Assembly (NCBI RefSeq): GCF_009711415.1
Contig: NZ_SMLZ01000116.1
Coordinates: 127,000 to 190,999, forward strand
Direction of reading: 5' to 3'
Source: Roseibium denhamense
GTDB lineage: Bacteria; Pseudomonadota; Alphaproteobacteria; Rhizobiales; Stappiaceae
DNA length: 64,000 nt
In this document: piece after piece, positions 44,038 to 60,541 of the stretch
Layout: the number at the start of each line of letters is the position of its first letter
How positions within the stretch are numbered: the stretch's first letter is position 1
Made by a program: the position numbers and the translations under genes
The notes under the pieces: model-generated
What the model was told of the DNA's origin: nothing
The model's input: the letters and a program-made list of their open reading frames with translations, nothing else
Databases searched by the model: none

Positions 44038-44892
44038 ATGAACAGTTTTGAGCACATACGGGCACTCTTGCCGTCAGAGGCGAGAGCCGCCATCCGGTCA
44101 GGCGCCTATACCCGCCACACCGCTGGTCTCGCCGCTGGCTATCTACAGGCAAACCTGGTTGTTTTGCGCGAAGTCCACGCTCTTGATTTTGCCCGGTTTT
44201 GCCAGCGAAATCCGAAGCCGTGCCCCGTTGTCGGCATGACTGATGCGGGCAGCCCGCAGTTCCGGACGCTTGGCCGCGACGTCGATCTGTGCCGGGATGT
44301 CCCCTCCTATAACATTTACGAAAATGGCCGAATCACGGCGACGGTTCCGGATATCTCCAGCTATTGGAAGGAAGACCATGTCGGTTTTGCCCTCGGGTGT
44401 TCGTTCACATTTGAAACGGCGTTGATCGCAGCGGGAATACCTGTCCGCCATATCGACGCCGATACCACCGTTCCCATGTACCGCACCTCCATCGAGTTGA
44501 CCCCAGCCGGACCATTTGGCGGAACCATGGTGGTCAGCATGCGGCCGATACCCCGGGACCGTGTCGCCGAAGCGATCGCCATCTCTTCGAAATTTCCGCT
44601 GGCCCACGGAGCACCTGTTCACACCGGCTCTCCCGGGGAAATCGGCATCCGTGACCTTGCCGCGCCCGACTGGGGTGACTCGGTGGACATAAAGCCCGAT
44701 GAGGTGCCGTGTTTTTGGGCCTGCGGCGTGACACCTCAGGCTGCCCTTCTCTCGGCTAATCTTCCCTTGGTCATTACCCATACACCCGGACACATGCTGA
44801 TCACCGATGTGCCGGAGACTGCGGAGATACCGGTGATCCAACCAAATCAAAAAAACGCTGAAACCTTCCAGCCCCTTTCCAGAGGAGACTGA
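44038..44892 (+). CDS. DUF1445 family protein (putative hydro-lyase, D-glutamate cyclase-like)
   Basis: A 284-residue member of the DUF1445 family, annotated as putative hydro-lyase. The mammalian D-glutamate cyclase, which turns D-glutamate into 5-oxo-D-proline, contains this domain, and Bacillus YcsI sits beside 5-oxoprolinase genes. Conserved segments here include GLAAGYLQANLVVL, PCPVVGMTDAGSPQFRTLG, PDISSYWKEDHVGFALGCSF and FWACGVTPQAALLSANLPL, then ITHTPGHMLITDV. The start at 44038 gives family length; the frame is open further back into the LysR gene. One base separates its stop from the TRAP binding-protein start. The substrate here is not known. Confidence 0.85.
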   Translation: MNSFEHIRALLPSEARAAIRSGAYTRHTAGLAAGYLQANLVVLREVHALDFARFCQRNPKPCPVVGMTDAGSPQFRTLGRDVDLCRDVPSYNIYENGRITATVPDISSYWKEDHVGFALGCSFTFETALIAAGIPVRHIDADTTVPMYRTSIELTPAGPFGGTMVVSMRPIPRDRVAEAIAISSKFPLAHGAPVHTGSPGEIGIRDLAAPDWGDSVDIKPDEVPCFWACGVTPQAALLSANLPLVITHTPGHMLITDVPETAEIPVIQPNQKNAETFQPLSRGD

Positions 44893-44893
44893 C

Positions 44894-45931: not shown

Positions 45932-45952
45932 CGGCAACAGGAGGGTACGGCG

Positions 45953-46531
45953 GTGGCCGGCATAAGTGAACGTATCATTGACCGGCTAAAGGCAGTGAAC
46001 CGGCTCATCGCACTTGCGATGGGCGCGGGGCTGCTCCTATGCGCCGCCTTTATTCTCGCTGAAATTCTCGTCCGTCAGCTCGGCGGCAGTCTGGGGGGGA
46101 CGGACGAGATTGCAGGCTATGTCATGGCCATCGTGACGTCCTGGGGCATGGCCTACTGCCTTCTGGAACTGGGCCATGTGCGGATCGATTTCCTGCGCGG
46201 GTGTTTCGCATCGCGCGGCCGGGCGGTCCTCGATCTCATTTGTATGGCAACGCTGGCGGCTGTTGCGTCCGTGATCGCCTACAAGTGCTGGCCGGTTGTC
46301 GAGCGCTCCCTGGTGAATGGCAGCCGGGCAAACACACCGCTTGAAACACCATTGGCGCTTGTTCAGGTGCCGTGGTTTATGGGATGGGCATGGTTTGCCC
46401 TTTCAGCCTGGATCACGCTCGTCGCGGCAACATTCCTGGTACTTCAGTCCCGCTTGAAGGAAGCGGAAAGCGTTGCTGGTGTTTTTGCGGAAGCGGACGC
46501 AGCTGCCCGTGAGGCGGAGGCTGCAACATGA
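45953..46531 (+). CDS. TRAP transporter small membrane subunit (DctQ family)
   Basis: Four-helix membrane subunit of 192 residues. Helices lie at about 18-40 (LIALAMGAGLLLCAAFILAE), 55-75, 92-112 and 132-160, in the usual DctQ layout with the family-typical GYVMAIVTSWGMAYCLLELG and HVRIDFLRG. A charged, Ala/Glu-rich tail ends the protein. It overlaps the large subunit gene by four bases (ATGA). The start is GTG. Confidence 0.88.
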   Translation: MAGISERIIDRLKAVNRLIALAMGAGLLLCAAFILAEILVRQLGGSLGGTDEIAGYVMAIVTSWGMAYCLLELGHVRIDFLRGCFASRGRAVLDLICMATLAAVASVIAYKCWPVVERSLVNGSRANTPLETPLALVQVPWFMGWAWFALSAWITLVAATFLVLQSRLKEAESVAGVFAEADAAAREAEAAT

Positions 46532-47811
46532 TTGGAACCCTGTCAGTCTCCCTGCTCGCTCTGTTGTCGATTTCCCTGCCCGTGGGGGTCGTTCTGTTCC
46601 TGCTCGCCTTTGGAATTGATCAGTTCTATTCCTCGTTTCCCTTGATACGCGGCCTTGGAAACATGGTCTGGTCGTCTTCAAAATCGGCCACCTTGATCGC
46701 CATCCCGTTTTTCGTGCTTCTTGGGGAGATCCTAGTCCGCTCCGGGATCGCAAGCCGGACTTACTCGGCATTGGACCGTTGGTTCTCTTGGCTTCCAGGC
46801 GGCTTGATCCACGCCAATGTGGCAACCGCGACAATGTTCTCGGCAACGTCAGGCTCGTCTGTCGCAACCGCTGCAACAGTTGCGACCGTTGCCATGCCAC
46901 AGGCTGAACGTCTCGGATATGACCAGCGCCTGTTTTCCGGCGCTATTGCAGCCGGAGGCACGCTTGGGATCATGATCCCGCCATCGATCAACTTGATCGT
47001 CTACGGCTTCTTGACCCAGACCTCGATCCCGCAGCTGTTTCTGGCGGGTCTCGTGCCGGGCCTCTTGCTGGCACTTGCCTTTCTGGTGGTGACCGCCTTG
47101 ATTTGCGCGATCCGGCCCGATCTCGGCGGAACCCGGCGTGTCTTTCCCTTCATCGACATGCTCAAGGCGCTCACCGAGCTCCTGCCGATCATCATGCTGT
47201 TCACCTTGATCATCGGGTCGATCTATATGGGCTGGGCAACCCCGACGGAGGCGGCCGCTGTGGGCGTGGCCGGTGCCATGCTTATTGCAGCGCTAACGAG
47301 CGGCATTACCTGGAAGATGATGGAAGCTAGCCTTCTGGGCACGATCAAGATCACGGCAATGATCATGCTTGTTGTGATTGGCGCTTCGTTCCTGAACTTT
47401 ACTCTGGCTTCAGCCGGGTTGGGCCGCGAGCTGCAGGATTTCCTCGGGTCTCTCGGGCTGACACCGTTCTATACGCTTCTTGTCATCGTTGCGATCTACG
47501 TCGTGCTCGGATTCTTCATTGAGACACTGTCCTTGATGGTCGTCACCATTCCGATCGTCGTGCCCCTCGTTCTGGAGCTCGGCTATGATCCCGTCTGGTT
47601 TGGCATCTTGATGATCGTGCTGATTGAAATGGCGCTGATCACGCCGCCTGTCGGGCTCAATCTCTACGTGGTTCAGGGCGCCCGGCGCAGTGGATCCATG
47701 AGCGATGTCATGATGGGGTCACTCCCCTTCGTCTTCACCATGGGTCTGATGGTCGCCGCGCTCATCGCCATGCCCGGCATCGCGCTCTTTCTCCCGGCGG
47801 CCTTGCAGTAG
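46528..47811 (+). CDS. TRAP transporter large membrane subunit (DctM family)
   Basis: Sodium- or proton-coupled permease of the TRAP system, 427 residues with about twelve hydrophobic segments. Typical stretches are LIAIPFFVLLGEILVRSGIA, the motif ATSGSSVATAATVATVAMPQ, GGTLGIMIPPSINLIVYGFL and VEMALITPPVGLNLYVVQG-like LIEMALITPPVGLNLYVVQG. Works with the binding protein and small subunit encoded just upstream. A strong terminator follows 13 bases after the stop. Confidence 0.95.
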   Translation: MIGTLSVSLLALLSISLPVGVVLFLLAFGIDQFYSSFPLIRGLGNMVWSSSKSATLIAIPFFVLLGEILVRSGIASRTYSALDRWFSWLPGGLIHANVATATMFSATSGSSVATAATVATVAMPQAERLGYDQRLFSGAIAAGGTLGIMIPPSINLIVYGFLTQTSIPQLFLAGLVPGLLLALAFLVVTALICAIRPDLGGTRRVFPFIDMLKALTELLPIIMLFTLIIGSIYMGWATPTEAAAVGVAGAMLIAALTSGITWKMMEASLLGTIKITAMIMLVVIGASFLNFTLASAGLGRELQDFLGSLGLTPFYTLLVIVAIYVVLGFFIETLSLMVVTIPIVVPLVLELGYDPVWFGILMIVLIEMALITPPVGLNLYVVQGARRSGSMSDVMMGSLPFVFTMGLMVAALIAMPGIALFLPAALQ

Positions 47812-47824
47812 TGGCCCCAACCTT

Positions 47825-47854
47825 GGCCCCGCTCATTGGAGCGGGGCCCTTTTT
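47825..47854 (+). terminator. strong intrinsic terminator after the LysR/DUF1445/TRAP unit
   Basis: Perfect 10-base stem GGCCCCGCTC (47825-47834) and GAGCGGGGCC (47839-47848), four-base loop, then CTTTTT. It closes the plus-strand unit; the minus-strand UspA gene ends 18 bases further on, so it may also help stop that transcript. Confidence 0.92.
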
Positions 47855-47871: not shown

Positions 47872-48282
47872 TTAGCCGCGAACGACAAATACGGAGCAGC
47901 CGGCCCGCCGCACAACGCGAGAGGCCGTTGATCCGAGAAAGTAATCCTGGGCGGTCGGGTGATGCGATCCGACGATGATGAGATCGACGCTATTTTCCTC
48001 GGCGAAGGCTGCAATCTGAACACCGGGCTTCCCACTGACAACCTTGCACTGGATGCTGTCGTCTCCGCCGGTTGCTTCGCGCAGCTTGTTTTCGACTTTG
48101 GTCGTAAGATGGTTGTCGACCTTCATGGTCACGAATTCGGACACGAAGCCCGGAATATTTTCAAGGACGGTCAAAAGCGTGATTTGTCCGCCATCCGCCA
48201 TAAGATGGCGCGCGTTTTCAAGTTTCCGGCCGATCAGCGTCTCATGATCAAGAGCGACCGGTATCAGGACATGCTTGTACAT
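47872..48282 (-). CDS. universal stress protein family (UspA)
   Basis: A 136-residue single-domain UspA protein. It begins MYKHVLIPVALDHETLIGRK and ends with the nucleotide-loop region LIIVGSHHPTAQDYFLGSTA followed by SRVVRRAGCSVFVVRG. The G-2x-G-9x-G(S/T) ATP motif is incomplete (second Gly replaced by His), so nucleotide binding is unsure. AAGGAGG lies 11 bases before the ATG at 48282. It is the last gene of the sulfonate run. UspA proteins are often found with TRAP transporters; in Halomonas, TeaD modulates the TeaABC TRAP system. Confidence 0.88.
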   Translation of the reverse strand: MYKHVLIPVALDHETLIGRKLENARHLMADGGQITLLTVLENIPGFVSEFVTMKVDNHLTTKVENKLREATGGDDSIQCKVVSGKPGVQIAAFAEENSVDLIIVGSHHPTAQDYFLGSTASRVVRRAGCSVFVVRG

Positions 48283-48338
48283 CGGATCGACATCCTCCTT
48301 TTTGAAACTCAACCAGTCCTGCCTTGACCTTTGGCCGG

Positions 48339-49355
48339 TCAGAGACAGGCATGACTTTCTGCAAGCTTCCGGACCGCGTCGGCATAGCGGACCGGTACGT
48401 CAATGCCCTCCGCCCGCGCCTTGGCGATGGCGTCAGCGCGGCGGCTGCCGGGCAGGCGCGCGCCCTCCATTGTTTCAATCAGGCTGAGCAGAGCGTCGAT
48501 GCGAGCAGCGAAATGCTCCGTATCCATCGGCTTCATGGCGATCAGGAATTGACCAACTCCGGGAGGTGGTCCATCGGCGGAAAAGAACGAGGATGCTTCG
48601 GTGCTTTTAGATGCGCCCGTCATGACCGAGGCCAGGATCTCCACCATCAGTGCCAGCGCTGTGCCCTTGGCTTCTCCAATCGGCAGCATTGTGCCTTCGA
48701 GCGCAGCTTCAGCACTTGTGGTCGGGGTGCCGTCCTTGCCGAGCGCCCAGCCCTCTGGGATGTCTTTACCGGCTTTGCGTGCATTCATTACCTTGCCGCG
48801 GGCCACCCGTGACAGGGAGAGGTCCACCACAAGCGGATCCTTGCTTGGACGGGGCGCGGCAAACGCAATTGGATTTGTGCCGAACACGGGATGCTTGGCC
48901 CCGAACGGCGCCATCGCCGCCGGTGCGTTGGCCACCATGATCGCCATCAAACCCTGATTGGCCAGTTTTTCGACCTGAACCGAGAGCGCGCCGCAGTGAT
49001 GCGACCGCGTAATGCCCATGGTTGCACAGCCATGGTCCAGCGCGACTTCGGAGCCTTTCTCAATGACCGCATCAAGTGCGGGATAGGCAAATCCGAAACC
49101 GGCATCTGCGAGGAGGCTGCTTGTTCCTTTTTGAGAAATTATAACGTCTGCAGCGGCAGCGATTTTGCCGGACTGGACTTGAGCGGCGTAGTCCTCCACC
49201 CGCGAAAATCCGTGCCCTACTTGACCTTCCGCTTCTGCGGCCACAAGCGCGTTTGCAACGGACTGCGCGGCTAGGTCTGGCACTCCCACGGCCAGGAAGG
49301 CGGACTTGATCAAAAGTTCTGCATTGCAAAGGCTGAGGCGTTCGGTCGCTTCCAT
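48339..49355 (-). CDS. comC: LDH2/MDH2-family dehydrogenase, probable (R)-sulfolactate dehydrogenase
   Basis: A 338-residue member of the malate/L-lactate dehydrogenase (LDH2/MDH2) family, to which ComC, (R)-sulfolactate dehydrogenase, belongs. Family segments are VANALVAAEAEGQVGHGFSR, HCGALSVQVEKLANQG, FGTNPIAFAAPRPSKDPLVV and LPIGEAKGTALALMVEILAS. ComC interconverts (R)-sulfolactate and sulfopyruvate with NADP. In this operon it could help epimerise sulfolactate or exchange it with sulfopyruvate. The start at 49355 is preferred over a GTG at 49394. A 125-base gap with a hairpin separates it from suyB. The family is certain; the sulfolactate role is inferred from context. Confidence 0.8.
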   Translation of the reverse strand: MEATERLSLCNAELLIKSAFLAVGVPDLAAQSVANALVAAEAEGQVGHGFSRVEDYAAQVQSGKIAAAADVIISQKGTSSLLADAGFGFAYPALDAVIEKGSEVALDHGCATMGITRSHHCGALSVQVEKLANQGLMAIMVANAPAAMAPFGAKHPVFGTNPIAFAAPRPSKDPLVVDLSLSRVARGKVMNARKAGKDIPEGWALGKDGTPTTSAEAALEGTMLPIGEAKGTALALMVEILASVMTGASKSTEASSFFSADGPPPGVGQFLIAMKPMDTEHFAARIDALLSLIETMEGARLPGSRRADAIAKARAEGIDVPVRYADAVRKLAESHACL

Positions 49356-49443
49356 CGGTGTGTGTGCTTTCAAAAGACAACTGATCGCCGACACTTATTT
49401 CAAATTTTGGGGCTTGGCGATGCCCTAGCTGTAAGGCTGAGTA

Positions 49444-49470
49444 TCTGGTGGCTGGTTTCCAGCCACCAGA
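49444..49470 (-). other. perfect intercistronic hairpin after suyB
   Basis: A 12-base perfect stem TCTGGTGGCTGG (49444-49455) with CCAGCCACCAGA (49459-49470) and a three-base loop, ten bases after the suyB stop. On the transcribed (minus) strand no T tract follows, so it is not a standard terminator. It could protect the 3' end of a processed suyB message and lower expression of the genes beyond it. Confidence 0.7.
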
Positions 49471-49480
49471 CCAGTTGGTT

Positions 49481-50662
49481 TTAAGCGCTGCGGTAGAGTT
49501 TGGTCATCGAGAACTCCCGGTGACCAAGTGCTTCGGCAGCCGTGTTCCGGCCATTGGCGGTGCGGCAGATCATTTCAATCAACGCATCGCCGGCCTCATC
49601 GATGGTCATTTCCCGGCGCAATATGCCGGAGACATCAACGTCCACGTGTTCACTCATGGTGCGAACCGTGCGCGGATTGGCCGTGATCTTGACCACCGGC
49701 ACGATCGGGTTGCCAACCACATTGCCCTGTCCTGTCGGGAAGGTGTGGATCACGGCACCGCCGGCAGCCATCAGGGTCACGCATTCCGCGGCTGCGGACG
49801 ATGAGTCCATGAAATAGAGGCCATTGCCCGACTTCGGCGCCTCGGCAGGATCGAGAATGTCGATGTACTGCGATGTGCGGCCGATTTTTTCCAGGTTTCC
49901 GAGGGCCTTTTCCTCGATGGTGGTCAGGCCGCCTTCGATGTTGCCTTTGGTCGGCTGGCTGTCTGACAGGTCATCGGTCTGGTGTGCGAAGATCACATCG
50001 TCCTGATAAGCCTTCCACATTTTGTACCAGCGTTCGCCGACTTCCTCGTTGATCGCACGTTTTTGGCAGATGTGTTCCGCACCGGTGATTTCAGACGTTT
50101 CACCAAAGAACCCGGTGATGCCTTCCGGCAGCAGCTTGTCGTACATGTTGCCGACAGTCGGGCAGGAGCCGAGACCGGTGGTTGTGTCGCTCTCACCGCA
50201 TTTGGTGGAGACCCAGAGCTCGGAGATGGAGCACTCTTCGCGCTGGTATTCCGAAGTCTTGTGAACGAAGTCCTTCGCGGCCCAGGAGGCGCGACGGATC
50301 GTCTCAAAATCACCGTTCTGCTCGATGGAGAATTCAGCGACCGGCTTGCCCGTTTCGCGAATGCCATCGGCAATCCGTTTGGTCCAGCCCGGCTCGATGC
50401 CGATAACAACGACCGCCGCGACATTCGGGTTGGCGCCGGTGCCGATCATAGTGCGGAAGTGCAGCTCCAGATCTTCGCCGAATTGCAGACGGCCATAGGC
50501 ATGTGGGATGGCCAGCGTGCCCTTGACGTTGTTGGCAACAGCCTCACAGGCCGCGTTGGAAATATCGTCGACGGGCAGAATGAGTACGTGGTTGCGGACC
50601 CCGACCCTGCCGTTTTCGCGCCGGTAGGCCTTCACCGTCATATTTGAATATTTGGTAGACAT
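49481..50662 (-). CDS. suyB: (2R)-sulfolactate sulfo-lyase subunit beta
   Basis: Large subunit of the enzyme that cleaves sulfolactate into pyruvate and sulfite. It belongs to the altronate/galactarate dehydratase family: [20 protein letters not shown] at the start, [40 protein letters not shown] and [20 protein letters not shown]. Length from 50662 is 393 residues, as expected for SuyB, with AAGGAGC upstream. The small partner SuyA is encoded 13 bases upstream as a separate gene, which is the SuyAB arrangement. Neighbouring HpsNOP make sulfolactate rather than altronate the likely substrate. Confidence 0.9.
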
Positions 50663-50675
50663 TTCGGGCAGCTCC

Positions 50676-50966
50676 TTACCAGCGCTTGGTTTTGCAGTTG
50701 TGCGTGTGGACGTGGGCGCCCTTCGGAATTTCGGCGATGATTTTGCCGATGTCCTCGCCGTATTTGATGGCCGTGTCGCCATCTGCGAGGTCTTTCAGTG
50801 CGATCTTGTGGCCAATCGGCACATCTGCTCCGGCTGTGAGACGGAATGTGGAATTGTCATGGGTGACACAGCACAGCATGTCGGTGCCGGCAGTCAGCCC
50901 TTCCACAACCACCACACCGACATTGTCGGCATGTTCGTGGACGAGAAGATGGGGAATTTCAGACAT
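50676..50966 (-). CDS. suyA: (2R)-sulfolactate sulfo-lyase subunit alpha
   Basis: Small subunit, 96 residues, of the SAF-domain type that partners SuyB. It begins [20 protein letters not shown] and contains [40 protein letters not shown] and the ending [12 protein letters not shown]; the last histidine-rich motif resembles the metal-contacting end of UxaA/GarD N-terminal domains. Start at 50966 with GAGGAG upstream; the open frame continues into hpsP without support. It lies ten bases after hpsP. Confidence 0.9.
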
Positions 50967-50976
50967 AATTGTCTCC

Positions 50977-51972
50977 TCAAGTATCTGGTGTGAGTAGAAT
51001 TTTCGGAACAGCAACCGCGCCTTTGCGCAAGTCGTTGAAAGCTTTGAGGCCGTCGGACAGCGGCCGGATTTCGGTCCAGTCCAGCGCGCCCAACCGGCCA
51101 TCGAACATGGCCTTGGCTGTCTCGCGGAAATCTTCGGCGGTGTATGTGTAGGTCCCGATGAAGGTGATTTCCTGCAGCGTCATACGCCGGATATCCAGAC
51201 CGCCATCAGAGGACCCAAGTCCAATATGGCTGATAACCCCCCCTGGCTTGGCCAGTTTGGTTGCGGTGGCCCGTGTTGCGGCATAACCGACGCCGTCGAC
51301 GATTAGATCATACTGCCCGCTCGTCTCCGCCTGCCCCGGTGTCAGGACCTCGATCCCGCAGGAGGACTTGAGAAATTGCGCGCGTTCCTGATTGGGTTCG
51401 ACCAGGCGAACGTGCTGGATCCCTTGTGCCTTCAAGGAAAGAGCCGCACCGAGGCCGATTGCTCCGCCGCCGATGACAAGCGCCCGTGCTTCGGCCGGGT
51501 CGGACATGAGGGCCCGTTTGGCTAGCCGCACGGCATGCCAACCACAGGCAATCGGTTCGGCAAGGGCGGCCTGGGCATCGGTAATGTTGTCCGGCACCAC
51601 GACCAGATTGCCCTCCGGCATTACAAGATAGTCGGCAAACCCGCCTTCGCGCGGCGGCATGGAGATGATTTGCCGGTCCGGGCAAAGATTGTCCCGGCCA
51701 GACCGGCAAGCCTCACATGTGCCGCACGTGACCAGCGGGTTGACGGTCACCCTTTTTCCCTCGAGCGGGCCCGATATAACGGTTCCTGCAACTTCATGTC
51801 CAAGAATGAGAGGAGCCGGGCGACGTTCATCATGGCCAAGGAAGGCATGCATGTCGGATCCGCAGATGCCGGTGTGGGCCACCTTGATGAGCGCATCGCT
51901 TGCCGAAGGGGTCGGATCCGCAACATCCCGGTAAGCCTGCGTTTCCGGGCCGGTGTAAACAAGGGCTTTCAT
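50977..51972 (-). CDS. hpsP: zinc-dependent alcohol dehydrogenase, probable DHPS 2-dehydrogenase HpsP
   Basis: Medium-chain dehydrogenase of 331 residues. Catalytic zinc ligands are in GICGSDMHAFLG and ILGHEVAGTV, structural zinc cysteines in CGTCEACRSGRDNLC, and the NAD(P) fold in ALVIGGGAIGLGAALSL. In Cupriavidus, HpsP and the SDR HpsO oxidise DHPS at carbon 2 and together interconvert its two enantiomers. Here the gene overlaps hpsO by four bases (ATGA) and precedes suyA by ten. Family is certain; the specific role rests on the context. Confidence 0.87.
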   Translation of the reverse strand: MKALVYTGPETQAYRDVADPTPSASDALIKVAHTGICGSDMHAFLGHDERRPAPLILGHEVAGTVISGPLEGKRVTVNPLVTCGTCEACRSGRDNLCPDRQIISMPPREGGFADYLVMPEGNLVVVPDNITDAQAALAEPIACGWHAVRLAKRALMSDPAEARALVIGGGAIGLGAALSLKAQGIQHVRLVEPNQERAQFLKSSCGIEVLTPGQAETSGQYDLIVDGVGYAATRATATKLAKPGGVISHIGLGSSDGGLDIRRMTLQEITFIGTYTYTAEDFRETAKAMFDGRLGALDWTEIRPLSDGLKAFNDLRKGAVAVPKILLTPDT

Positions 51973-52721
51973 TTTGCAGTGAACCCCCCGTCGACCATGA
52001 GGACTTGGCCCGTGACATAGCGGGACGCATCGGAACACAAAAACAGGATTGGTCCGTCAATATCGTCAAGCGCTCCGTTGCGGCCGATACAGGTCTGGGC
52101 AGCATTGCGCCGCGCCCGTTCTTCATCGCCAAAGACGGCAGCTGTCAGCTCGGTCGGGAAGAAACCGGGGCCAATTGCGTTTGCCGTGATGCCGTCCTTC
52201 GACCAGGCCTCGGCCATGGCCCGTGTCAATTGACCGATGCCGCCCTTGGAGGCTCCGTAAGCAATACCGCCCGGGAACGCCCGTGTTGTCTGAAGGGACG
52301 CGAAGTTGACGATCCGGCCCCAGCCTTTCTCCTTCATCGCCGGCGCGAAGGCCTTACTCAGGAAGAACGGCACCGTCAGATTGAGCATCATCGTGATGTC
52401 CCATCCGGCATCCGTCACATCATCGGCGGGTTCGCGGGTATTGATCCCCGCTGCATGAACCAGGATTTCAGGCGGACCGAATGGCTCGGCAATGCTTTTG
52501 AGGGTCGCGGCAAGGCTCTCGCGATCACTCAGATCAGCTGGCACTGCTGCGGTCGACCCGCCAGCTTCCTGCCGCCACTCCTCAAGATCGGCCGACCGCC
52601 TCGCAACGCCGACCACCGACGCGCCCGCTTGGGCCAGCACCGTGGCAGCGCGCCGTCCGAGACCTGAACTGGCGCCGGTCACGCAGGCAACTTTGCCGGA
52701 AACATCGAACAGACCGGACAT
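51969..52721 (-). CDS. hpsO: short-chain dehydrogenase, probable DHPS 2-dehydrogenase HpsO
   Basis: SDR of 250 residues. It has the cofactor motif VTGASSGLGRRAATVLAQAG, the HAAGINTRE segment, catalytic serine in IVNFASLQTTRA, and YGASKGGIGQL with the Tyr-Lys pair; the C-terminus DASRYVTGQVLMVDGGF is standard. Paired with HpsP it would form the DHPS enantiomer-interconverting couple through the 2-oxo compound. It starts four bases after hpsN and overlaps hpsP. Generic annotation would call it a 3-oxoacyl reductase-like SDR; the neighbours argue for HpsO. Confidence 0.87.
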   Translation of the reverse strand: MSGLFDVSGKVACVTGASSGLGRRAATVLAQAGASVVGVARRSADLEEWRQEAGGSTAAVPADLSDRESLAATLKSIAEPFGPPEILVHAAGINTREPADDVTDAGWDITMMLNLTVPFFLSKAFAPAMKEKGWGRIVNFASLQTTRAFPGGIAYGASKGGIGQLTRAMAEAWSKDGITANAIGPGFFPTELTAAVFGDEERARRNAAQTCIGRNGALDDIDGPILFLCSDASRYVTGQVLMVDGGFTAK

Positions 52722-52725
52722 GGCC

Positions 52726-54039
52726 TTACTCTGCCGCCTCCGCACTCAGGTCGAAGTTTTCACCCGGGAAATACTTCCGCAACCGGATGTCGGCCGTGCG
52801 GGCGTGGCCTTCCATCCCTTCGAGGCGGGAGATCCGCGCGGTTGCCTCCGCTACCGGCTTGGCCCCCTCGCGGGTGGCCCGCTGCCAGGTGACGATCTTC
52901 ATGAACTTGTGGACCGACAGGCCGCCCGTGTAGGACGCAGCGCCTGATGTCGGCAGCACATGGTTTGTGCCCGACGCCTTGTCGCCGAAGGCAACGGTGG
53001 TTTCTTCCCCGAGGAAGAGGGACCCGTAGCAGGAAAGGCGGTCCAGCCACCAATCCAGATCCTCAGCCTGCACCGTCAAATGCTCGGGTGCATAAGCATC
53101 CGACGTTGCCGCCATCTCCTCGCGGGTGTCGCACATGATCACCTCGGCATAGTCGCGCCAAGCGGCAGCAGCGTTCTGACTGTTCACTTCCGGTAGGTCT
53201 TCGATGAGCTTAGGCACCAGCGCCATGACTTCTTCGGCCAGGGACCGTGTGTCGGTGACGAGCCAGACTGGTGAATTGTAGCCATGTTCCGCCTGGCCGA
53301 CGAGATCGGCGGCGACCACTTCCGGATCCGCTGTCTTGTCTGCAAGGATCAAGCTGTCCGTGGGCCCTGCAAACATGTCGATCCCGACGCGGCCGAACAG
53401 GATCCGCTTGGCTTCGGCGACAAACTGGTTGCCCGGCCCAACAAGGATGTTGGCCTTTGGCAGACCGAAGAGGCCAAAGGTCATGGCAGCCACACCCTGA
53501 ACCCCGCCCATGGCGACGATCTTGTCTGCGCCGCACACGTGCGCCGCGTAGATGATTGCCGGATTAATGCCGATGCCGGGGCGCGGTGGCGAACAGGCGA
53601 CGATGTTGTCGCAGCCCGCCACCTTGGCGGTCGTGACCGTCATGATCGCGCTGGCGATGTGGCTGTAGCGGCCGCCTGGGATGTAGCAGCCGGCCGTGTT
53701 GACCGGGATGCTCTTTTGACCCGCAATGAGCCCCGGGACAACCTCGACCTCGATGTTCTGGCAGGTCGTTTTTTGCGCTTCTGCGAACCGCTTCACGTTG
53801 GCATGGGCAAACTCGATGTCGCGCTTCAGCTTTTCCGGCACCTTGGCGCTGGCTGCCTCAATGTCGGCATCCGTCAGGATGATCGTGCCGTCATACTTGT
53901 CGAACTTGGCGGCGTACTCCATCGCGGCGGCATCGCCGCCCGCCTCAATCGCACCGAGGATTTCCTGAACGACCTTTGTGGTCTCGGACGCATCGGTCTT
54001 GGAGGTCAGATCTGCTTTCTTCAGATATTCAACAGTCAT
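52726..54039 (-). CDS. hpsN: sulfopropanediol 3-dehydrogenase HpsN (histidinol dehydrogenase family)
   Basis: A 437-residue histidinol-dehydrogenase homologue. It keeps the HisD fold and catalytic segments (ILVGPGNQFVAEAKRILFGR, IDMFAGPTDSLILADKTADP, ADLVGQAEHGYNSPV, YAPEHLTVQ, GDKASGTNHVLPTSGAA). There are no other histidine-synthesis genes here. HpsN oxidises (R)-DHPS in two steps to (R)-sulfolactate with NAD. Its place between a TRAP transporter and HpsO/HpsP/SuyAB matches known DHPS clusters. It lies eight bases after the TRAP large subunit gene. Confidence 0.92.
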   Translation of the reverse strand: MTVEYLKKADLTSKTDASETTKVVQEILGAIEAGGDAAAMEYAAKFDKYDGTIILTDADIEAASAKVPEKLKRDIEFAHANVKRFAEAQKTTCQNIEVEVVPGLIAGQKSIPVNTAGCYIPGGRYSHIASAIMTVTTAKVAGCDNIVACSPPRPGIGINPAIIYAAHVCGADKIVAMGGVQGVAAMTFGLFGLPKANILVGPGNQFVAEAKRILFGRVGIDMFAGPTDSLILADKTADPEVVAADLVGQAEHGYNSPVWLVTDTRSLAEEVMALVPKLIEDLPEVNSQNAAAAWRDYAEVIMCDTREEMAATSDAYAPEHLTVQAEDLDWWLDRLSCYGSLFLGEETTVAFGDKASGTNHVLPTSGAASYTGGLSVHKFMKIVTWQRATREGAKPVAEATARISRLEGMEGHARTADIRLRKYFPGENFDLSAEAAE

Positions 54040-54047
54040 GGCAGAGC

Positions 54048-55379
54048 CTACTTGTAAATTTCAGGCAGCAGCGTGGTCGAGATTGCCGGCACATAGGCAA
54101 TCAGCAAGGTCACGGCGAGCATGAAGAGGACGAAAGGAACGGCCCGGGCGGCGATTTTCAATATCGATTCACCCGTCAGGCCTGAGACGACGAACAGATT
54201 GAGACCGAGCGGCGGCGTGATGAACCCGACACCGAGTGCAGTAATCATCATGATGCAGAACTGGATCTCGTTCATGCCGATGTTGTCGGCGAGCGGTTTC
54301 AGGATTGGCGCCAGGATAACGATGTTCGGTGTGGTCTCCATAACGCAGCCTGCCGCGATCAAGACCAGGATCATCATCATGATGAGCACCCAGGGCTCGT
54401 CGCTGATGCCGGTGGCGACCGCCACAAAACCTTGCGGCACACCAATGATGGCAAGGGCTTCTGCAAGGGGAATGGAGAAGGCGATGATCGGGATGATCAC
54501 ACCATTGACCTTGGCCGAACTGACCAGCATGGCCGGGAAGTCTGACAGCCTCATAGTCCCCAGGATAAAGCCCATGGCGATTGTCACCACGACAGCGGTG
54601 GCGCCGGCTTCCGTTGGGGTCAGGCGGCCGGAAAAGATGCCGTAGAAGATGATTATTGGAACGATGAAGGCGTACCAACCCGATTTGATGGCAACCCAAA
54701 GCTGGGAGAAGTATTCACCCATGCTGATGTTGCCGCCGCCTTCCCAGCCATAAAGGCGGTTCATGATGATGTTTGTGGCCAGGATCGACACCAGGATGGC
54801 GATCCCCGGGATAACGGCTGCCAGGAACAGGGTCGATGCGGAGATGCCCAGCACCAATCCAATAATGATGTAGGCGATCGATGGCGGGATCAGGATGCCG
54901 GTACAGGCACCAGCTGCGACAAGCGCACATGCATAGGGACGCGGGTAGCCGCTTTCCACCAACCGGTCGATGGTCATGCGGCCGACAGCGGCGGCACCGG
55001 CTGCATCCGAGCCTGAAATGGCTGCAAACATGCCGCAAACAAGAACGGTGGCGGAGCCGAAGCCACCCTTTGCGAATTGCGTGAGCGCTTCCGCAACGTC
55101 GAGAAATTTTCGACTGAGCCCCGTTCGGACCAGCGCATCGCCGGTCAGAATAAACAGTGGGACAGCAGTCAGTGCGAAGGCGTCGATGCCGCTGAACAGC
55201 TTTTCGCCGACCAGCGACAGCGGAAGCGCGCCGGACCAGACAAGCATGAGGCTCGCGGCAGCGCCGATGGCCGCCCAAACCGGCACCGCAAGCGCCACAA
55301 GTAGGACAAACAGCAGAACCGGGCCGTAAAAATCCCAACCAAGCTCAATTGTTTGCGGTTGCATATGTTGCCAAAGCAT
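54048..55379 (-). CDS. TRAP transporter large membrane subunit, probable DHPS uptake (HpsKLM type)
   Basis: DctM-type permease, 443 residues with about twelve membrane segments. Typical stretches are FALTAVPLFILTGDALVRTG, AAISGSDAAGAAAVGRMTID, ACTGILIPPSIAYIIIGLVL and ALGVGFITPPLGLNLFVVSG. Start at 55379 follows AAGGGGG. It forms a transporter with the small subunit (10 bases upstream) and the binding protein. Its direct continuity with hpsN (8 bases) points to DHPS as the substrate, as with hpsKLM of roseobacters. Confidence 0.92.
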   Translation of the reverse strand: MLWQHMQPQTIELGWDFYGPVLLFVLLVALAVPVWAAIGAAASLMLVWSGALPLSLVGEKLFSGIDAFALTAVPLFILTGDALVRTGLSRKFLDVAEALTQFAKGGFGSATVLVCGMFAAISGSDAAGAAAVGRMTIDRLVESGYPRPYACALVAAGACTGILIPPSIAYIIIGLVLGISASTLFLAAVIPGIAILVSILATNIIMNRLYGWEGGGNISMGEYFSQLWVAIKSGWYAFIVPIIIFYGIFSGRLTPTEAGATAVVVTIAMGFILGTMRLSDFPAMLVSSAKVNGVIIPIIAFSIPLAEALAIIGVPQGFVAVATGISDEPWVLIMMMILVLIAAGCVMETTPNIVILAPILKPLADNIGMNEIQFCIMMITALGVGFITPPLGLNLFVVSGLTGESILKIAARAVPFVLFMLAVTLLIAYVPAISTTLLPEIYK

Positions 55380-55389
55380 AGCCGCCCCC

Positions 55390-55905
55390 TTAGTCGAACA
55401 GTTTGTCGCCTTCGTAGACGGGCTTGCCGTCACGAAGGTCGCGGATATCGCGCAGGAGCGACTGGGCGAGACGGAAAAGGATCAGCGCGAAGCCAAGAGG
55501 CACAGCACTGAGGAACCAGACTTGCGAGATGCGCAGACCGTGGGTCACCGATCCAAATTTCGCAGAGACAAGGACGGTTTCGAGCGACCAATAGAACGCA
55601 ATGACTGCCACGACAGCCATGACAATGTCGCCGAGAATGTAGAGCAATGCCTTCGCTTTCGGGTCGACATACTGCATCAGGACGTCGATCCGGATATGTC
55701 CGCGTTCCTTGACCGCAGCCGCCGCACCGATCCAGGCAAGGTAAATGAAGGAATAGCGGACGATCTCTTCACCCCAGATGGACGAGTAGGCGAAAACCTC
55801 GCGCCGGACCACCTCGATAAACATCGTCAGGACAAGCATGACGTAGAACACAAGAAGCAACCAGCGTTCACCGTTCTTGTCGATAGCCTTAAGGACATTG
55901 GACAT
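55390..55905 (-). CDS. TRAP transporter small membrane subunit, probable DHPS uptake (HpsKLM type)
   Basis: DctQ-type subunit of 171 residues with four membrane helices, beginning near residue 16 (WLLLVFYVMLVLTMFIEVVR). Family features are SIWGEEIVRYSFIYLAWIGA and KERGHIRIDVLMQYVDP. Start at 55905 follows GAGGAG. It sits 123 bases after the binding-protein gene and 10 before the large subunit gene. Confidence 0.88.
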   Translation of the reverse strand: MSNVLKAIDKNGERWLLLVFYVMLVLTMFIEVVRREVFAYSSIWGEEIVRYSFIYLAWIGAAAAVKERGHIRIDVLMQYVDPKAKALLYILGDIVMAVVAVIAFYWSLETVLVSAKFGSVTHGLRISQVWFLSAVPLGFALILFRLAQSLLRDIRDLRDGKPVYEGDKLFD

Positions 55906-56028
55906 TGGCACTCCTCGACCGTTCCCATCAGACGGCGTGCCTGATGCGGTGGTCGCGTGAACAGGGAATTGGAAAGCGCACAGTGTGGTCTGCCCGCGGT
56001 CTTACGCCGCCGGCAGATCCGTCAGGCC

Positions 56029-57171
56029 TTAAGCGTCATGAACGTAGAGACGGCCTTGAGTGTTGGCGGCCTCTTCGAGGCGGCCGAAGGCTTCCATGGA
56101 CCCGGCGAGTTCCTTCTTGAACTCATCCCACTCAGAGCGCTGATATCCGCCTGCATCCTGCCATTCAGCCAGCTGGTCTTCCGACAGTGAATGGAACTGG
56201 ACGCCGGATTTCACCAACTCAGCCATGGCGTAGGAACGTGCGGCCGGGACTTTTGCGAGGTTTTGCTGCGCAGTGATCTCTCCAGCGAACTCAATGCCTT
56301 CCTGAACATCGGCGGGCAAGGAGTTGAACCACTCCAGGTTCATTGAATAAACCTGACTGTCGGGCACGGCCTGGGTGAAGGTGACGTGGCTCAAGATGTC
56401 CTTGAAGCCAAAGACGTAGAGTGCGCCGACCGACGGGTCGAGCGCATCGGCAACGCCCTGTTTGATGGCGGAGGGTGTTTCACCCCATGCAACCGGTGTC
56501 GGGTTTGCGCCGACCATGCGGTAATACTGCTGAAGCATGGCCGATCCTGGAACGCGGAACTTCACGCCAGACAGGTCGCCAGGTGTGATGACCTGATTGC
56601 CGCCCTTGCGGATCGCAACGACGCGCGGATCAATGACGACATAGAACAGCGCTTTGAAGCCGGAGGCCTCGATCTTCGGGTGGACTTCGCTCTTCCAGGC
56701 ATCGGATGTCACCAGGTTGGTGAACCGCTGGTTGGAGCCGCAGAAGTACGGCATGTTGATCAGGTCAACAGCGGATGCGAAGGGTGCAAAGTTGGACAGG
56801 GAGTGCTGCGCTGCCTGAATGGTGCCGCCCTGAACGGCCTGGGCAAGTGCACCGCCGGCGCCGAGCTGTCCGCCCGGTGCGAGCTTGACATAGACCTTGC
56901 CGTTGGTGGCGTTCTGGATGTTTTCCTTCAGGTCCAGCTGCATGATCGGGTAGCTGCGCGACGCGCCAAGCACGTAAGCGGTTGCCAGTGTCATCGTATG
57001 ATCGGCAGCTTGTTCGCGCTCGCGCTCCTCTTGCGCCGTCTGGGCAACGGCCTCGTCGGACCACAGTGTTCCGGCCGCCCCTGCAACGACAGCTGCAGTA
57101 AATGCGCCCTTGCTTGTCAGCTTCAAGAAATTGCGGCGCTCATGTGAGACCAGGTCTTCCGTCTTTTTCAT
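56029..57171 (-). CDS. TRAP transporter substrate-binding protein, Tat-exported, probable DHPS receptor
   Basis: DctP-family receptor, 380 residues. The N-terminus carries a twin-arginine signal (ERRNFLKLTSKGAFTAAVV, then AGAAGTLWSDEAVA), so it is exported folded, unlike the Sec-type receptor at 44894. Mature segments include YPIMQLDLKENIQNATNGKV, GGQLGAGGALAQAVQGGTIQ and LSGVKFRVPGSAMLQQYYRM with the ligand-contacting arginine. It is followed by both membrane subunits. DHPS specificity is inferred from the operon. Confidence 0.9.
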   Translation of the reverse strand: MKKTEDLVSHERRNFLKLTSKGAFTAAVVAGAAGTLWSDEAVAQTAQEEREREQAADHTMTLATAYVLGASRSYPIMQLDLKENIQNATNGKVYVKLAPGGQLGAGGALAQAVQGGTIQAAQHSLSNFAPFASAVDLINMPYFCGSNQRFTNLVTSDAWKSEVHPKIEASGFKALFYVVIDPRVVAIRKGGNQVITPGDLSGVKFRVPGSAMLQQYYRMVGANPTPVAWGETPSAIKQGVADALDPSVGALYVFGFKDILSHVTFTQAVPDSQVYSMNLEWFNSLPADVQEGIEFAGEITAQQNLAKVPAARSYAMAELVKSGVQFHSLSEDQLAEWQDAGGYQRSEWDEFKKELAGSMEAFGRLEEAANTQGRLYVHDA

Positions 57172-57213
57172 GATTTCCTCCCAAGAAATCTGGTTTGGAT
57201 AGTATGACGTCGG

Positions 57214-57381
57214 CTACTTTTCAGCTTCCCTCTTGAGGACAGCCGCCGAGAACGCCACCGAAACGGCGAACAGGCACAGCATTTCTCCGACATTTCCGAA
57301 AAACGGTGTTCCGCCAAGGGAACCGATCGATACATTGATCACAAAGACGGCAAAGAGACCGCCTGCCAAAGCCAAAAGCAT
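57214..57381 (-). CDS. 55-residue small membrane protein at the head of the sulfonate operon
   Basis: A short open frame I translated directly: it starts MLLALAGGLFAVFVINVSIG and ends AAVLKREAEK. It is preceded by GGGAGGTGATC, one of the best ribosome-binding sites in the window, immediately before the ATG at 57381. The two hydrophobic stretches (about 2-19 and 32-49) suggest two membrane helices with a Gly/Phe turn. It lies 42 bases before the TRAP receptor gene and 36 bases downstream of the LacI-type palindrome, so it would be the first gene of the operon. No function is known to me; a TRAP accessory subunit is possible. Confidence 0.7.
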   Translation of the reverse strand: MLLALAGGLFAVFVINVSIGSLGGTPFFGNVGEMLCLFAVSVAFSAAVLKREAEK

Positions 57382-57416
57382 GATCACCTCCCAACGACCA
57401 ATTCACCGGCTGCCTC

Positions 57417-57436
57417 AAATGTAAGCGTTTACATTT
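57417..57436. promoter_or_regulatory. LacI-type operator between the sulfonate operon and its regulator gene
   Basis: TGTAAGCGTTTACA (57420-57433) is an imperfect palindrome with central CG, the form bound by LacI/GalR regulators; flanking AAA and TTT extend the symmetry to 20 bases with a single mismatch per half. It lies in the 113-base divergent gap, 36 bases from the small-protein ATG and about 60 from the lacI-type start, so it can control both. Confidence 0.8.
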
Positions 57437-57448
57437 TTCATTGCAAGC

Positions 57449-57460
57449 GAAAAGCGTTTC
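57449..57460. promoter_or_regulatory. second, weaker LacI-type half-palindrome
   Basis: GAAAAGCGTTTC repeats the AGCGTTT core of the neighbouring operator and has GAAA/TTTC symmetry. Its centre is 28 bases from that of the first operator (about 2.7 helical turns). It may be an auxiliary site for the same regulator. Confidence 0.5.
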
Positions 57461-57494
57461 AACAGAATTGGAAAAACGATAAGGCATTAGGCCG

Positions 57495-58571
57495 ATGGAC
57501 AGCCATGCCGCTCACATTCACTATGGCCATATGCACGAACCACAAGACATAAACACGGATGCCCCACCCACGCTTGCGGATGTTGCCGCTGCTGCCGGTG
57601 TCTCTACGGCAACCGTATCACGGTGTTTGAATAATCCTGAGCTCGTGACGGAGAAAACGCTCGAGCGGGTCCTCGCGGCCGTAGATCACCTCGGGTACTC
57701 CCCAAACTTCAGTGCACGCGCCCTCGCCTCCCGCCGGACAAACATGATCGGCGCCATTATTCCAACCATGGACAACGCCATTTTTGCCCGCGGATTGCAG
57801 GCTTTTCAGGAGGAACTTCAGAAAAACGGCTGCACACTTCTTGTGGCATCGTCGTCTTACAAACAGGATCTTGAAGAAGAACAGATCAAGGCCCTGACCG
57901 CCCGTGGTGCCGATGCGCTGCTCCTGATCGGGTATCACCGTGACCCGGGCATTTATGCGTTCCTGGAAAAGCGTAGGATACCGGTTCTCGTTGCCTGGGC
58001 GTATGACCCTGCAAAGCCCTATCTTTGTGTGGGGTTTCGAAACCGCGATGCGATGAAGAGACTTGCGGAAAAGGTCCTGGAGGCCGGTCACCGCAAGCTT
58101 GGGTGTATTACGGCCGAGACCGCCGCCAATGACCGGGCGCGCGAGCGCGTTGACGGGATACGGGACGCCATGGCAGCCGCCGATTTGGCACCAGATACCC
58201 TGGAGATTGTTGAAACGACCTACTCGATCGAAAGCGGTGATCAAGCCTTCCGGCAATTAATGCAGGATACCGATACGCCAACCGCCATAATGTGCGGAAA
58301 TGATGTGCTGGCTGTCGGCGCTCTCAGGGCTGCGGCGGATATGGGTCTGCGGGTTCCCGAGGATGTTTCGATAACCGGGTTTGACAATATTGAATTGGCA
58401 AGTGTGTCGCCTCAGCCTTTGACGACAGTTCACGTGCCGCACCGGCGCATGGGCCAATATGCAGCGCAAGCCCTGATGAAAGTTCTGTCCGGTGGTGATG
58501 TCCCGGCCTCGCTTGAGCTGCCAGCGGATCTTTGTATGCGGGCAACGCTTGCGCCTCCGCGCAAGCCGTGA
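57495..58571 (+). CDS. LacI-family transcriptional regulator
   Basis: A 358-residue LacI/GalR regulator. The helix-turn-helix is PTLADVAAAAGVSTATVSRC and the hinge follows in GYSPNFSARALASRRTNMIG; the ligand domain runs from about 80 to the end (MCGNDVLAVGALRAAADMGL, VSITGFDNIELASVSPQPLT). An extra 25-residue His/Asp-rich N-terminus precedes the DNA-binding domain; a second ATG at 57531 could be the real start. It is divergent from the ten-gene sulfonate run, with LacI-type palindromes between, so DHPS or a catabolite is the likely inducer. Confidence 0.92.
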   Translation: MDSHAAHIHYGHMHEPQDINTDAPPTLADVAAAAGVSTATVSRCLNNPELVTEKTLERVLAAVDHLGYSPNFSARALASRRTNMIGAIIPTMDNAIFARGLQAFQEELQKNGCTLLVASSSYKQDLEEEQIKALTARGADALLLIGYHRDPGIYAFLEKRRIPVLVAWAYDPAKPYLCVGFRNRDAMKRLAEKVLEAGHRKLGCITAETAANDRARERVDGIRDAMAAADLAPDTLEIVETTYSIESGDQAFRQLMQDTDTPTAIMCGNDVLAVGALRAAADMGLRVPEDVSITGFDNIELASVSPQPLTTVHVPHRRMGQYAAQALMKVLSGGDVPASLELPADLCMRATLAPPRKP

Positions 58572-58585
58572 CGGCGGGCAAGATT

Positions 58586-60541
58586 TCAGCCTGCGAAACT
58601 GCGCTGCTTATGATCTGGAAAAAACAGCGTGGTGATGTCGTCAATGGCCATCGGGCCGCCGAAGAGATAGCCCTGCCCGTTCTCGCATCCCAAATCGACC
58701 AGTATGTCGCGCTGCTCAACGGTCTCAATCCCTTCAATGAGCACGTCTGAGCCCATGGTTTTCGCAATTCCGAGAACCATCTTCAGAATGTCCCGGAGCT
58801 TTTGGTCCCGTACCGCCCTACAGACGAATGACCGGTCAATCTTGATCTCGTCCCAATGGAAATCGGTCAGATACGACAGGGCGGAATAGCCAACGCCAAA
58901 GTCATCTAGAGAGATCCCGATCCCGAAGTTTCTAAGCTCGGTAAGCGTCGACTTGACCCGTTCCAGGTCCTTCATCAACGTCGATTCCGTGATCTCCAGC
59001 TTCAGTCTTTGTGCAGGAAGACCGGTTCTGCCAAGGCACTCATCGACCATGGCAACGACATCATCGTTGAGGATTTGTGCGACCGACAGGTTCACGGACA
59101 GTTGTAAATTGGACGGGAGAAGCTGCACCTCCGCACAAGACGTTTCGAGTATTTTCCAGCCCATCGGCACGATGTCGCCACTGCTTTCCGCAATCGGGAT
59201 GAATTCGGACGGCGAAATCCAGCCGAGTTCAGAGTGATACCAGCGGGCCAAGGCCTCAACTCCGAAGATACGGCCGGTTTTCAGATTGAACTGAGGCTGG
59301 AAATGCGGCAGGCACTCATTGGCCTCGATCGCCCTCGCCAAGGCGGCTTCCACACGGGCGTGCCGCTCCATGTGAGCGCGCATAACCGGCTCGTATGTCA
59401 CTGGCCGCCGTTTGGTGTTCTGCACAGCATTGGCAACTGCAAGGTCTGCGTTCCGGATGATGTCGCTTCCATGGGCATCAGAAGCCCGTGAATCGGCAAA
59501 TCCGATTGCGGGCGTCACGACATAGGAACCGTGCGCTGTTGCGACCGGCCGGAGAAATTGATCCTGGATCCGGCTTGCAATGTGCTCTGCCGACAAGTCC
59601 ATCTCGCTTGCGCGCTTGAACAAAAGCAGGAACCCTTTTCCGGCGGACCGGCCCAGTGTGATCGGAAGGTCGATGGTATCAATCACATGGCGCATTACAT
59701 CGGTGGCGGACCGCAGAACAGCATCGTCAATTGCGTGTCCGAAACCGTCGATCACGGGCACCCGCGACTCAAGATCCACCCGCATGACCACCAGCTCATC
59801 GCCAGGATGGCGGGTCTCAAAGGCCTCTGTGACCGTTTTAGCGAAGATACTGTGGTTGATGAGGCCGGTTTTCGGGTCGTGATCCAACTGGTGTGCCAGT
59901 TTATCGGCACGCGCTGATTCTGTTTTTGCCTTTTGCACGGCAATCCGGTTCTCCCGCACGAGTATGCCGATCCATCCAAGGGCGGACAGTACGAAGGCAA
60001 GCCCAATGGCAAGCAGCCCTGTACGGAATTGCTCCACTTCCTGCCGGGTCTGGTCTATCTGGGTGCGGATGCGTGACAGAATGAGCTCGCGGACCTGATC
60101 GATTGACGCCGCGGCCGTGCGCAAATGAGATAGAGCCTGTCGTGCCGCTGTTTTTGTCGAAAGGTCCGTCAGAATCGGTTGCAGCGCGTCCGCGTCCCGG
60201 CCGACGGCATCCAGACGTTCACGCACGTACTGGGAAACCGAAGCCTCCTGGGTTGGGAGCGTGGCTTCAAGAATCTCAAGGGATTTGAGGAACTCCCGCA
60301 AGCTGACCGACGCGAGCTGCGAATCCTGCTGCAAGGAAAATGCTGCGTAGCTCCCCGCGGCCCGTTCCATCATTCTGGTGTCAACGGCGGCAATCGTCCG
60401 GGTCATCTTGTCATATGTGTCAAGCTGGCGGGACAGGTTTGCGTGTGCGGAATATAGATAATAGCCGTTCAGTCCTGCGAGCACGGCGAGCACCGCAAAA
60501 CACAGCGGGAACAACAACCTGAGTGAAAGTCCGTGTCGCAT
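58586..60541 (-). CDS. membrane-bound degenerate GGDEF / EAL protein, predicted c-di-GMP phosphodiesterase
   Basis: A 651-residue signalling protein. Helices at about 7-29 and 172-192 enclose a periplasmic sensor rich in helices. The GGDEF domain (about 220-380) has lost its signature: the active loop reads GRSAGKGFLLLF, so cyclase activity is unlikely. The EAL domain (about 395-640) keeps the key elements VEALARW, NLSVAQIL, LEITEST, DDFGVGYSAL, IKIDRSF and EGIET, so c-di-GMP hydrolysis is predicted. It is convergent with the LacI gene by 14 bases and probably not functionally tied to it. Confidence 0.92.
   Translation of the reverse strand: MRHGLSLRLLFPLCFAVLAVLAGLNGYYLYSAHANLSRQLDTYDKMTRTIAAVDTRMMERAAGSYAAFSLQQDSQLASVSLREFLKSLEILEATLPTQEASVSQYVRERLDAVGRDADALQPILTDLSTKTAARQALSHLRTAAASIDQVRELILSRIRTQIDQTRQEVEQFRTGLLAIGLAFVLSALGWIGILVRENRIAVQKAKTESARADKLAHQLDHDPKTGLINHSIFAKTVTEAFETRHPGDELVVMRVDLESRVPVIDGFGHAIDDAVLRSATDVMRHVIDTIDLPITLGRSAGKGFLLLFKRASEMDLSAEHIASRIQDQFLRPVATAHGSYVVTPAIGFADSRASDAHGSDIIRNADLAVANAVQNTKRRPVTYEPVMRAHMERHARVEAALARAIEANECLPHFQPQFNLKTGRIFGVEALARWYHSELGWISPSEFIPIAESSGDIVPMGWKILETSCAEVQLLPSNLQLSVNLSVAQILNDDVVAMVDECLGRTGLPAQRLKLEITESTLMKDLERVKSTLTELRNFGIGISLDDFGVGYSALSYLTDFHWDEIKIDRSFVCRAVRDQKLRDILKMVLGIAKTMGSDVLIEGIETVEQRDILVDLGCENGQGYLFGGPMAIDDITTLFFPDHKQRSFAG

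Follow-up and report, generated by a model that had tools for sequence, protein, structure and literature searches.

We analysed a 64,000-nucleotide stretch of the Roseibium denhamense genome (GCF_009711415.1, contig NZ_SMLZ01000116.1, positions 127,000-190,999, forward strand; hereafter the window), which contains a predicted operon for the import and breakdown of 2,3-dihydroxypropane-1-sulfonate (DHPS), headed by a gene for a small membrane protein for which we coin the name smp. Eleven genes run along the minus strand from 57381 to 47872, and a LacI-family gene diverges from them (Table 1). Pfam recognizes DctP, DctQ, DctM, Histidinol_dh, SDR, zinc ADH, GD_AH, Ldh_2 and Usp families in the operon and LacI in the divergent gene, so that all three components of a tripartite ATP-independent periplasmic (TRAP) transporter are present. 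Every gene named in a first-pass annotation of this DNA corresponds to an open reading frame; that annotation listed eleven operon genes but gave their count as ten. Its description of the gaps as mostly 4-13 bases holds for six of the ten junctions, which lie between -4 (one overlap) and 13 bases, but not for the remaining four of 42, 123, 125 and 56 bases.

Table 1. Features of the hps operon and its immediate surroundings, in window coordinates.
Feature	Position	Strand	Basis
hpsR, LacI-family regulator, divergent	57495..58571	+	Pfam LacI and Peripla_BP_3; name hpsR (SPO0590) from Ruegeria pomeroyi
Promoter-like site, weak, -10 end abuts operator	57433..57462	-	9 of 12 consensus bases
LacI-type operator palindrome TGTAAGCGTTTACA	57420..57433	.	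degenerate-motif match
smp, 55-amino-acid small membrane protein, operon gene 1	57214..57381	-	conserved upstream of hpsK
hpsK, TRAP receptor (DctP), twin-arginine motif RRNFLK	56029..57171	-	Pfam
hpsL, TRAP small permease (DctQ)	55390..55905	-	Pfam
hpsM, TRAP large permease (DctM)	54048..55379	-	Pfam
hpsN, putative R-DHPS 3-dehydrogenase	52726..54039	-	735 bits to 8wwe, GRYSH, active-site residues
hpsO, putative R-DHPS dehydrogenase (SDR)	51969..52721	-	415 bits to 8wwf; S142, Q144, Y155, K159
hpsP, putative S-DHPS dehydrogenase (zinc MDR)	50977..51972	-	448 bits to 8wwd; H59, E60, E139
suyA, putative sulfolactate sulfo-lyase small subunit	50676..50966	-	position and conservation
suyB, putative sulfolactate sulfo-lyase large subunit	49481..50662	-	GD_AH domains, identity to C. 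pinatubonensis protein
'ComC-like' Ldh_2-family 2-hydroxyacid dehydrogenase	48339..49355	-	Ldh_2 297 bits; alternative GTG start 49394
hpsQ-like universal stress protein, last gene of operon	47872..48282	-	Usp
Terminator-like hairpin between hps operon and convergent TRAP operon	47825..47848	. (listed on +)	10-pair stem

We compared the catabolic enzymes of the operon to characterized proteins. HpsN, HpsO and HpsP match solved DHPS dehydrogenases of Roseobacteraceae. HpsN scores 735 bits against the (R)-DHPS dehydrogenase 8wwe and 549 bits against 8v35, a 'sulfopropanediol 3-dehydrogenase', but 266 bits against the best histidinol dehydrogenase, so that this HisD-like protein sides with the DHPS dehydrogenases and not with the true histidinol dehydrogenases. 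The active-site residues E319, H320, D353 and H360 and the zinc ligands Q249, H252 and H412 are kept (numbering is that of CpHpsN plus one), and GRYSH at positions 123-127 fits the G-R-Y-A/S-H motif described as specific to HpsN and absent from histidinol dehydrogenases (PMC11382572). HpsO (415 bits to 8wwf) has S142, Q144, Y155 and K159 at the spacing of S145, Q147, Y158 and K162 in RpHpsO, which corresponds to the catalytic Ser-Tyr-Lys set together with the R-selective Gln. In HpsP (448 bits to DsHpsP, 8wwd), His59, Glu60 and Glu139 of DsHpsP are kept as H59, E60 and E139. The genome encodes three HisD-like proteins, namely a strong HisD match on contig C80 (576 bits), HpsN and a paralogue on contig C71 (L126, G000:C71:120500-138500), which is 47.7% identical to HpsN and has an SDR and a LacI-like gene as neighbors. 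We rejected this paralogue as a second DHPS dehydrogenase, as GKFPM replaces GRYSH; judged by its matches it is a HisD-family dehydrogenase, with no substrate assigned.

SuyB shares 65.6% identity with the lyase subunit of the hpsN-hpsO cluster of Cupriavidus pinatubonensis HN-2. Against galactarate dehydratase it scores 134 bits, and 136 bits against the family model, whose cut-off is 731; it is thus nearer to the hps-cluster lyase than to the galactarate dehydratases with which SuyAB might have been confused. SuyA has no Pfam match, scores 37 bits against the N-terminus of galactarate dehydratase and is up to 97% identical in relatives. As the first-pass annotation had predicted, relatives carry the names 'histidinol dehydrogenase', 'UxaA family hydrolase' or 'D-galactarate dehydratase', and 'Ldh family oxidoreductase'. 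Several families in the operon do look like those of sugar-acid metabolism (galactarate dehydratase, gluconate 5-dehydrogenase), and one could imagine that another C3 polyol or sulfonate is degraded here. This is highly improbable given the HpsN-specific GRYSH motif (PMC11382572) and the fact that the scores of 735 and 415 bits were obtained with assayed R-DHPS dehydrogenases and that of 448 bits with an assayed S-DHPS dehydrogenase (PMC11131964). The HpsN and SuyB comparisons together uphold the original assignment as a DHPS import and degradation operon.

The route was initially taken to be self-contained and to include interconversion of the DHPS enantiomers. Interconversion belongs to an older model from 2010 and is still named, as epimerisation, in a figure legend of PMC11382572. 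RpHpsO and RpHpsP oxidise the C3 hydroxyl of R-/S-DHPS to yield sulfolactaldehyde, which GabD-2 oxidises, and RpHpsN converts R-DHPS to sulfolactate (PMC11131964). Because HpsO and HpsP oxidise DHPS to sulfolactaldehyde rather than interconvert it, the operon is not self-contained: neither a sulfolactaldehyde dehydrogenase nor an S-sulfolactate dehydrogenase is encoded in it. In the pathway we propose, the LacI-family HpsR would control the operon, HpsKLM would import DHPS, HpsN would oxidise R-DHPS to R-sulfolactate, and SuyAB would cleave R-sulfolactate into pyruvate and sulfite. The predicted R-DHPS path, HpsN followed by SuyAB, is complete in the genome. From R- and S-DHPS, HpsO and HpsP would produce sulfolactaldehyde; its oxidation to sulfolactate would fall to a GabD-type dehydrogenase encoded outside the operon, and the Ldh_2 protein would probably convert sulfopyruvate derived from the S-form to R-sulfolactate. 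The S-DHPS route thus needs a GabD-type enzyme and an S-sulfolactate dehydrogenase besides the operon genes.

Some findings weigh against this part of the scheme. Eleven SSADH-family matches occur in the genome, one of them above cut-off; this protein scores 647 bits against 3jz4, a succinate-semialdehyde dehydrogenase, and 575 against 8c54, which we take to be the Rhizobium sulfolactaldehyde dehydrogenase, and it is only a candidate for the GabD-type enzyme. An S-sulfolactate dehydrogenase was not identified, no search with a specific model having been made for it. The Ldh_2 protein scores 182 bits in the PDB against delta1-piperideine-2-carboxylate reductase versus 133 bits against L-sulfolactate dehydrogenase. 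We also dropped the 'ComC-like' label given to its gene at first, because the protein reaches 182.9 bits against a cut-off of 500 for the curated sulfolactate dehydrogenase model NF040650 (ComC), and no gene of this genome reaches that cut-off. Xsc was not found in the genome either (best score 270 bits, cut-off 676), in a search that did not extend to the CuyA branch or to SlcC/SlcD.

We next compared the operon to related loci and to known systems. Among the best 80 of at least 575 loci from a genome scan, 15 contain all twelve genes. In these, usp follows the Ldh_2 gene within 100 bases in eight cases, lies behind a gap of ~1.0-1.1 kb in six (L004, L025, L037, L038, L040 and L041) and is found elsewhere in L082. 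A chance arrangement is excluded because HpsN is 86-90% identical and the gene order the same in Roseibium/Labrenzia loci. The hpsR-hpsKLMNOPQ-slcD cluster of R. pomeroyi DSS-3 (SPO0590-SPO0598) shares the LacI gene, the TRAP genes K-L-M, then N, O, P and the UspA gene in locus-tag order, with hpsR as SPO0590 and hpsQ as SPO0597 (PMC4334477), and growth on DHPS is poor in a mutant of hpsKLM (SPO0591; PMC10130141). The R. pomeroyi cluster goes on with slcD, and R. pomeroyi is classed in the CuyA pathway (PMC11382572), whereas the window goes on with suyAB and the Ldh_2 gene and has UspA last. SPO0590 and SPO0591 are consecutive, which leaves no locus tag for smp, as judged from the tag listing alone and not from DSS-3 DNA (PMC4334477). 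The hpsRNOUPsuyAB cluster of C. pinatubonensis JMP134, compared via strain HN-2 (L133), shares LacI, HpsN, HpsO, HpsP, SuyA and SuyB but has an MFS importer in place of the TRAP transporter, and no smp match occurs in the 19-kb stretch. HpsNOP and SuyAB stand together, as in the window, in the SuyAB-type cluster of Dinoroseobacter shibae DFL12, going by its published description (PMC11382572). Plasmid pSC52_2 of Rhodobacteraceae bacterium SC52 has the very same order of LacI-type gene, smp, K-L-M, N, O, P, two UxaA genes, Ldh and stress protein; its smp (84 bits) is annotated as a hypothetical protein. It differs by one added gene, a putative sulfate exporter that precedes the stress protein, at the place of the ~1.0-1.1-kb gap in the six loci above; the window lacks this gene. 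On a Leisingera aquaemixtae plasmid (L132), an hps operon with smp is followed by comD, comE and an alpha-hydroxy acid oxidase in place of suyAB. The UspA gene and the gene order, earlier put forward as possible novelties, are therefore known already, as is the LacI gene, from R. pomeroyi hpsR and hpsQ, the 15 loci and pSC52_2, and the operon is one further example of the known marine bacterial DHPS gene set. The small protein, proposed as new as well, is indeed an undescribed part of it.

We investigated smp at the level of sequence, predicted fold and family. It is under purifying selection, with the non-synonymous difference (pN) below the synonymous one (pS) in all 28 pairs of eight Stappiaceae-like sequences and a median pN/pS of 0.26. 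An AlphaFold2 model based on alignment A1 shows a helical hairpin with helices at 2-23 and 30-54 and a mean predicted local distance difference test score (pLDDT) of 96.7. The two hydrophobic stretches and the charged C-terminus suggest that both termini are located inside. E52 is invariant in 24 aligned proteins, four divergent ones included. A protein search returned 1301 relatives at E<=1e-3, and among the best 120 of these, the ones named by their source are all hypothetical or uncharacterized proteins. Pfam returns nothing up to E=1, and the sole NCBIfam hit, to an antiporter subunit, has 13 bits. Among the papers listed in our searches of the openly licensed literature we found no published account of smp, and the terms 'small protein' and 'hypothetical' are absent from the available sections of PMC10130141. 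smp has the features of a family of ~55-100 amino acids with two hydrophobic helices, encoded directly upstream of an hpsK-type gene.

The association with hpsK is nearly strict. Among the best 80 loci, 55 hold hpsK, and an smp frame precedes it in all 54 that have upstream DNA (L034 begins inside hpsK). A profile search matched the same 54 loci at 69.9 bits or more and none of the 25 loci without hpsK (413 kb), 13 of which have hpsR at most 600 bases from hpsN with no transporter between. We extended the analysis to genome samples, in which for many genomes part of the first-look candidates was scored (such as 15 of 29 in one case and 4 of 26 in another). smp occurs in 10 of 398 genomes of the phylum sample, exactly the ten with HpsK and none of the 388 others. 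In the class sample, an HpsK relative at E<=1e-35 is present in 16 of 376 genomes and smp in all 16, with upstream smp visible in 13 of 13 fetched loci and smp seen separately in the other three. HpsK is found in 22 of 199 genomes of the order sample, and smp by profile in 20 of them. In the R. denhamense genome itself, hpsK is the one DctP-family gene of 16 that has an smp. The pairing extends to HpsK-like divergent genes (58-67% identical), which have a 79-96-residue smp relative directly upstream. Such pairs sit in hps operons with hpsL to hpsP in G126 and G166:C6. In G166:C7 (L160), smp and a receptor gene are located ~4 kb from hpsL-, hpsM- and hpsO-like genes and beside an E1-dehydrogenase-like protein, possibly as an importer for another sulfonate. 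In G002:C336 (L159), an smp-like open reading frame and an HpsK-like receptor neighbor SauS (749.5 bits, cut-off 600), Xsc (961 bits, cut-off 676) and two CoA-ligase subunits, and by these matches L159 is a sulfoacetate-type locus. As smp stands beside HpsK-like genes in these other operons, it follows that it tracks a sulfonate-type receptor clade and not the DHPS enzymes. The same behavior bears on the idea that smp is a leader whose translation controls the operon, by attenuation or by translational coupling to hpsK: smp is the first gene, directly after the operator, and ends 42 bases before hpsK, but its conserved amino acid sequence, with the low pN/pS and invariant E52, and its persistence beside HpsK-like genes elsewhere render a leader function improbable.

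Several observations count against smp as a conserved partner in transport. The pN/pS ratio is also as low as 0.42 in one of the other five reading frames, against 0.80 to 2.39 in the remaining ones, and several starts chosen by our script are non-ATG or shorten the frame. Foldseek returned 31 matches, none at E<=0.001. Four of the 25 loci without hpsK (L010, L054, L065 and L066) have less than 2 kb before hpsN, so that both hpsK and smp could have been cut off by the contig end. The two order-sample genomes missed by the profile are G002, in which an smp-like frame was located through its position (E 2.3e-4 within a set of five loci), and G024, whose contig begins inside hpsK. Conversely, HpsK is lacking in four of the 24 order-sample genomes that gave an smp match (G038, G060, G088 and G097; E 6.1e-4 to 6.8e-3); three of these matches fall within frames of 391-515 codons and one in a 93-codon frame, with no hps gene within ~3 kb, and we judged them to be chance. 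The second smp copy of G166 is weak (E 1.3e-3). Finally, no hpsL/hpsM (DctQM) match occurs in the 19 kb of L159, which is easier to reconcile with a partner of the receptor than with a subunit of the permease.

Taken together, the comparisons make it very probable that the window encodes a LacI-controlled operon for DHPS import and breakdown. smp is most likely an accessory membrane part of the sulfonate TRAP importer or a helper of its receptor, and the genomic association suggests that this two-helix protein would bind either HpsK or the HpsLM permease. In a more specific version, which we put forward tentatively, smp would be an obligate fourth component of a sulfonate-specific TRAP clade, coupling the HpsK exported by twin-arginine translocation (Tat) to the permease or sensing its loaded state. 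It may, still tentatively, have persisted in both DHPS and sulfoacetate systems and escaped notice because most members have fewer than 65 residues. Alternatively, smp could be an export, folding or membrane-anchoring helper of HpsK and no permease component. It is also found next to the receptor gene in loci where hpsL and hpsM lie ~4 kb away or were not found, and RR-type signal motifs are present in HpsK as well as in its divergent relatives; however, RR-type motifs occur in five of the 16 DctP genes of the genome and smp accompanies only hpsK, so that smp is no general Tat helper, and we regard this alternative as rather unlikely.

The operator palindrome TGTAAGCGTTTACA is the sole match to a degenerate LacI-type motif within the 64-kb window, and the motif is found in 40 of 53 hpsR-hpsK intergenic stretches versus 1.55% of random 400-base windows from the same loci. 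The promoter-like site is the one such site seen in the region, where 3.6 are expected by chance, and it is its position that speaks for it. Terminator-like sites in the region number 17 against 10.2 expected. By analogy with TeaD and TeaABC, the universal stress protein may adjust the activity of the transporter. In TeaABCD of Halomonas elongata, too, a stress protein gene is clustered with a TRAP transporter, and TeaD modulates transport (PMC9006882). The hpsQ-like protein is closer to UspF, with 48 bits, than to TeaD, with 25 bits (3hgm). The ATP motif of universal stress proteins is G-2x-G-9x-G(S/T). Its counterpart here, GSHHPTAQDYFLGS, has no second glycine; together with the distance to TeaD this speaks against a TeaD-type regulator, for which a close relation to TeaD and a complete ATP motif would be expected. 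Convergent to the operon, positions 43828-47811 (+) encode a second TRAP importer with no substrate assigned, composed of DctP, DctQ and a DctM-like large permease, together with a putative hydro-lyase of the D-glutamate cyclase family (above its NCBIfam cut-off). Adjoining hpsR, a GGDEF-EAL protein with a membrane-type region at its N-terminus is encoded at 58586-60541 (-).

DHPS is a sulfonate that algae supply in abundance, and its use by marine bacteria is marked by the importer HpsKLM. If smp is needed for uptake, TRAP transporters of the HpsK clade would have four kinds of part, and reconstitution or heterologous expression of HpsKLM without smp would miss one of them. Being strictly linked to hpsK, smp could also serve as an inexpensive marker of sulfonate-type TRAP receptors, among them those in loci for other substrates such as sulfoacetate.

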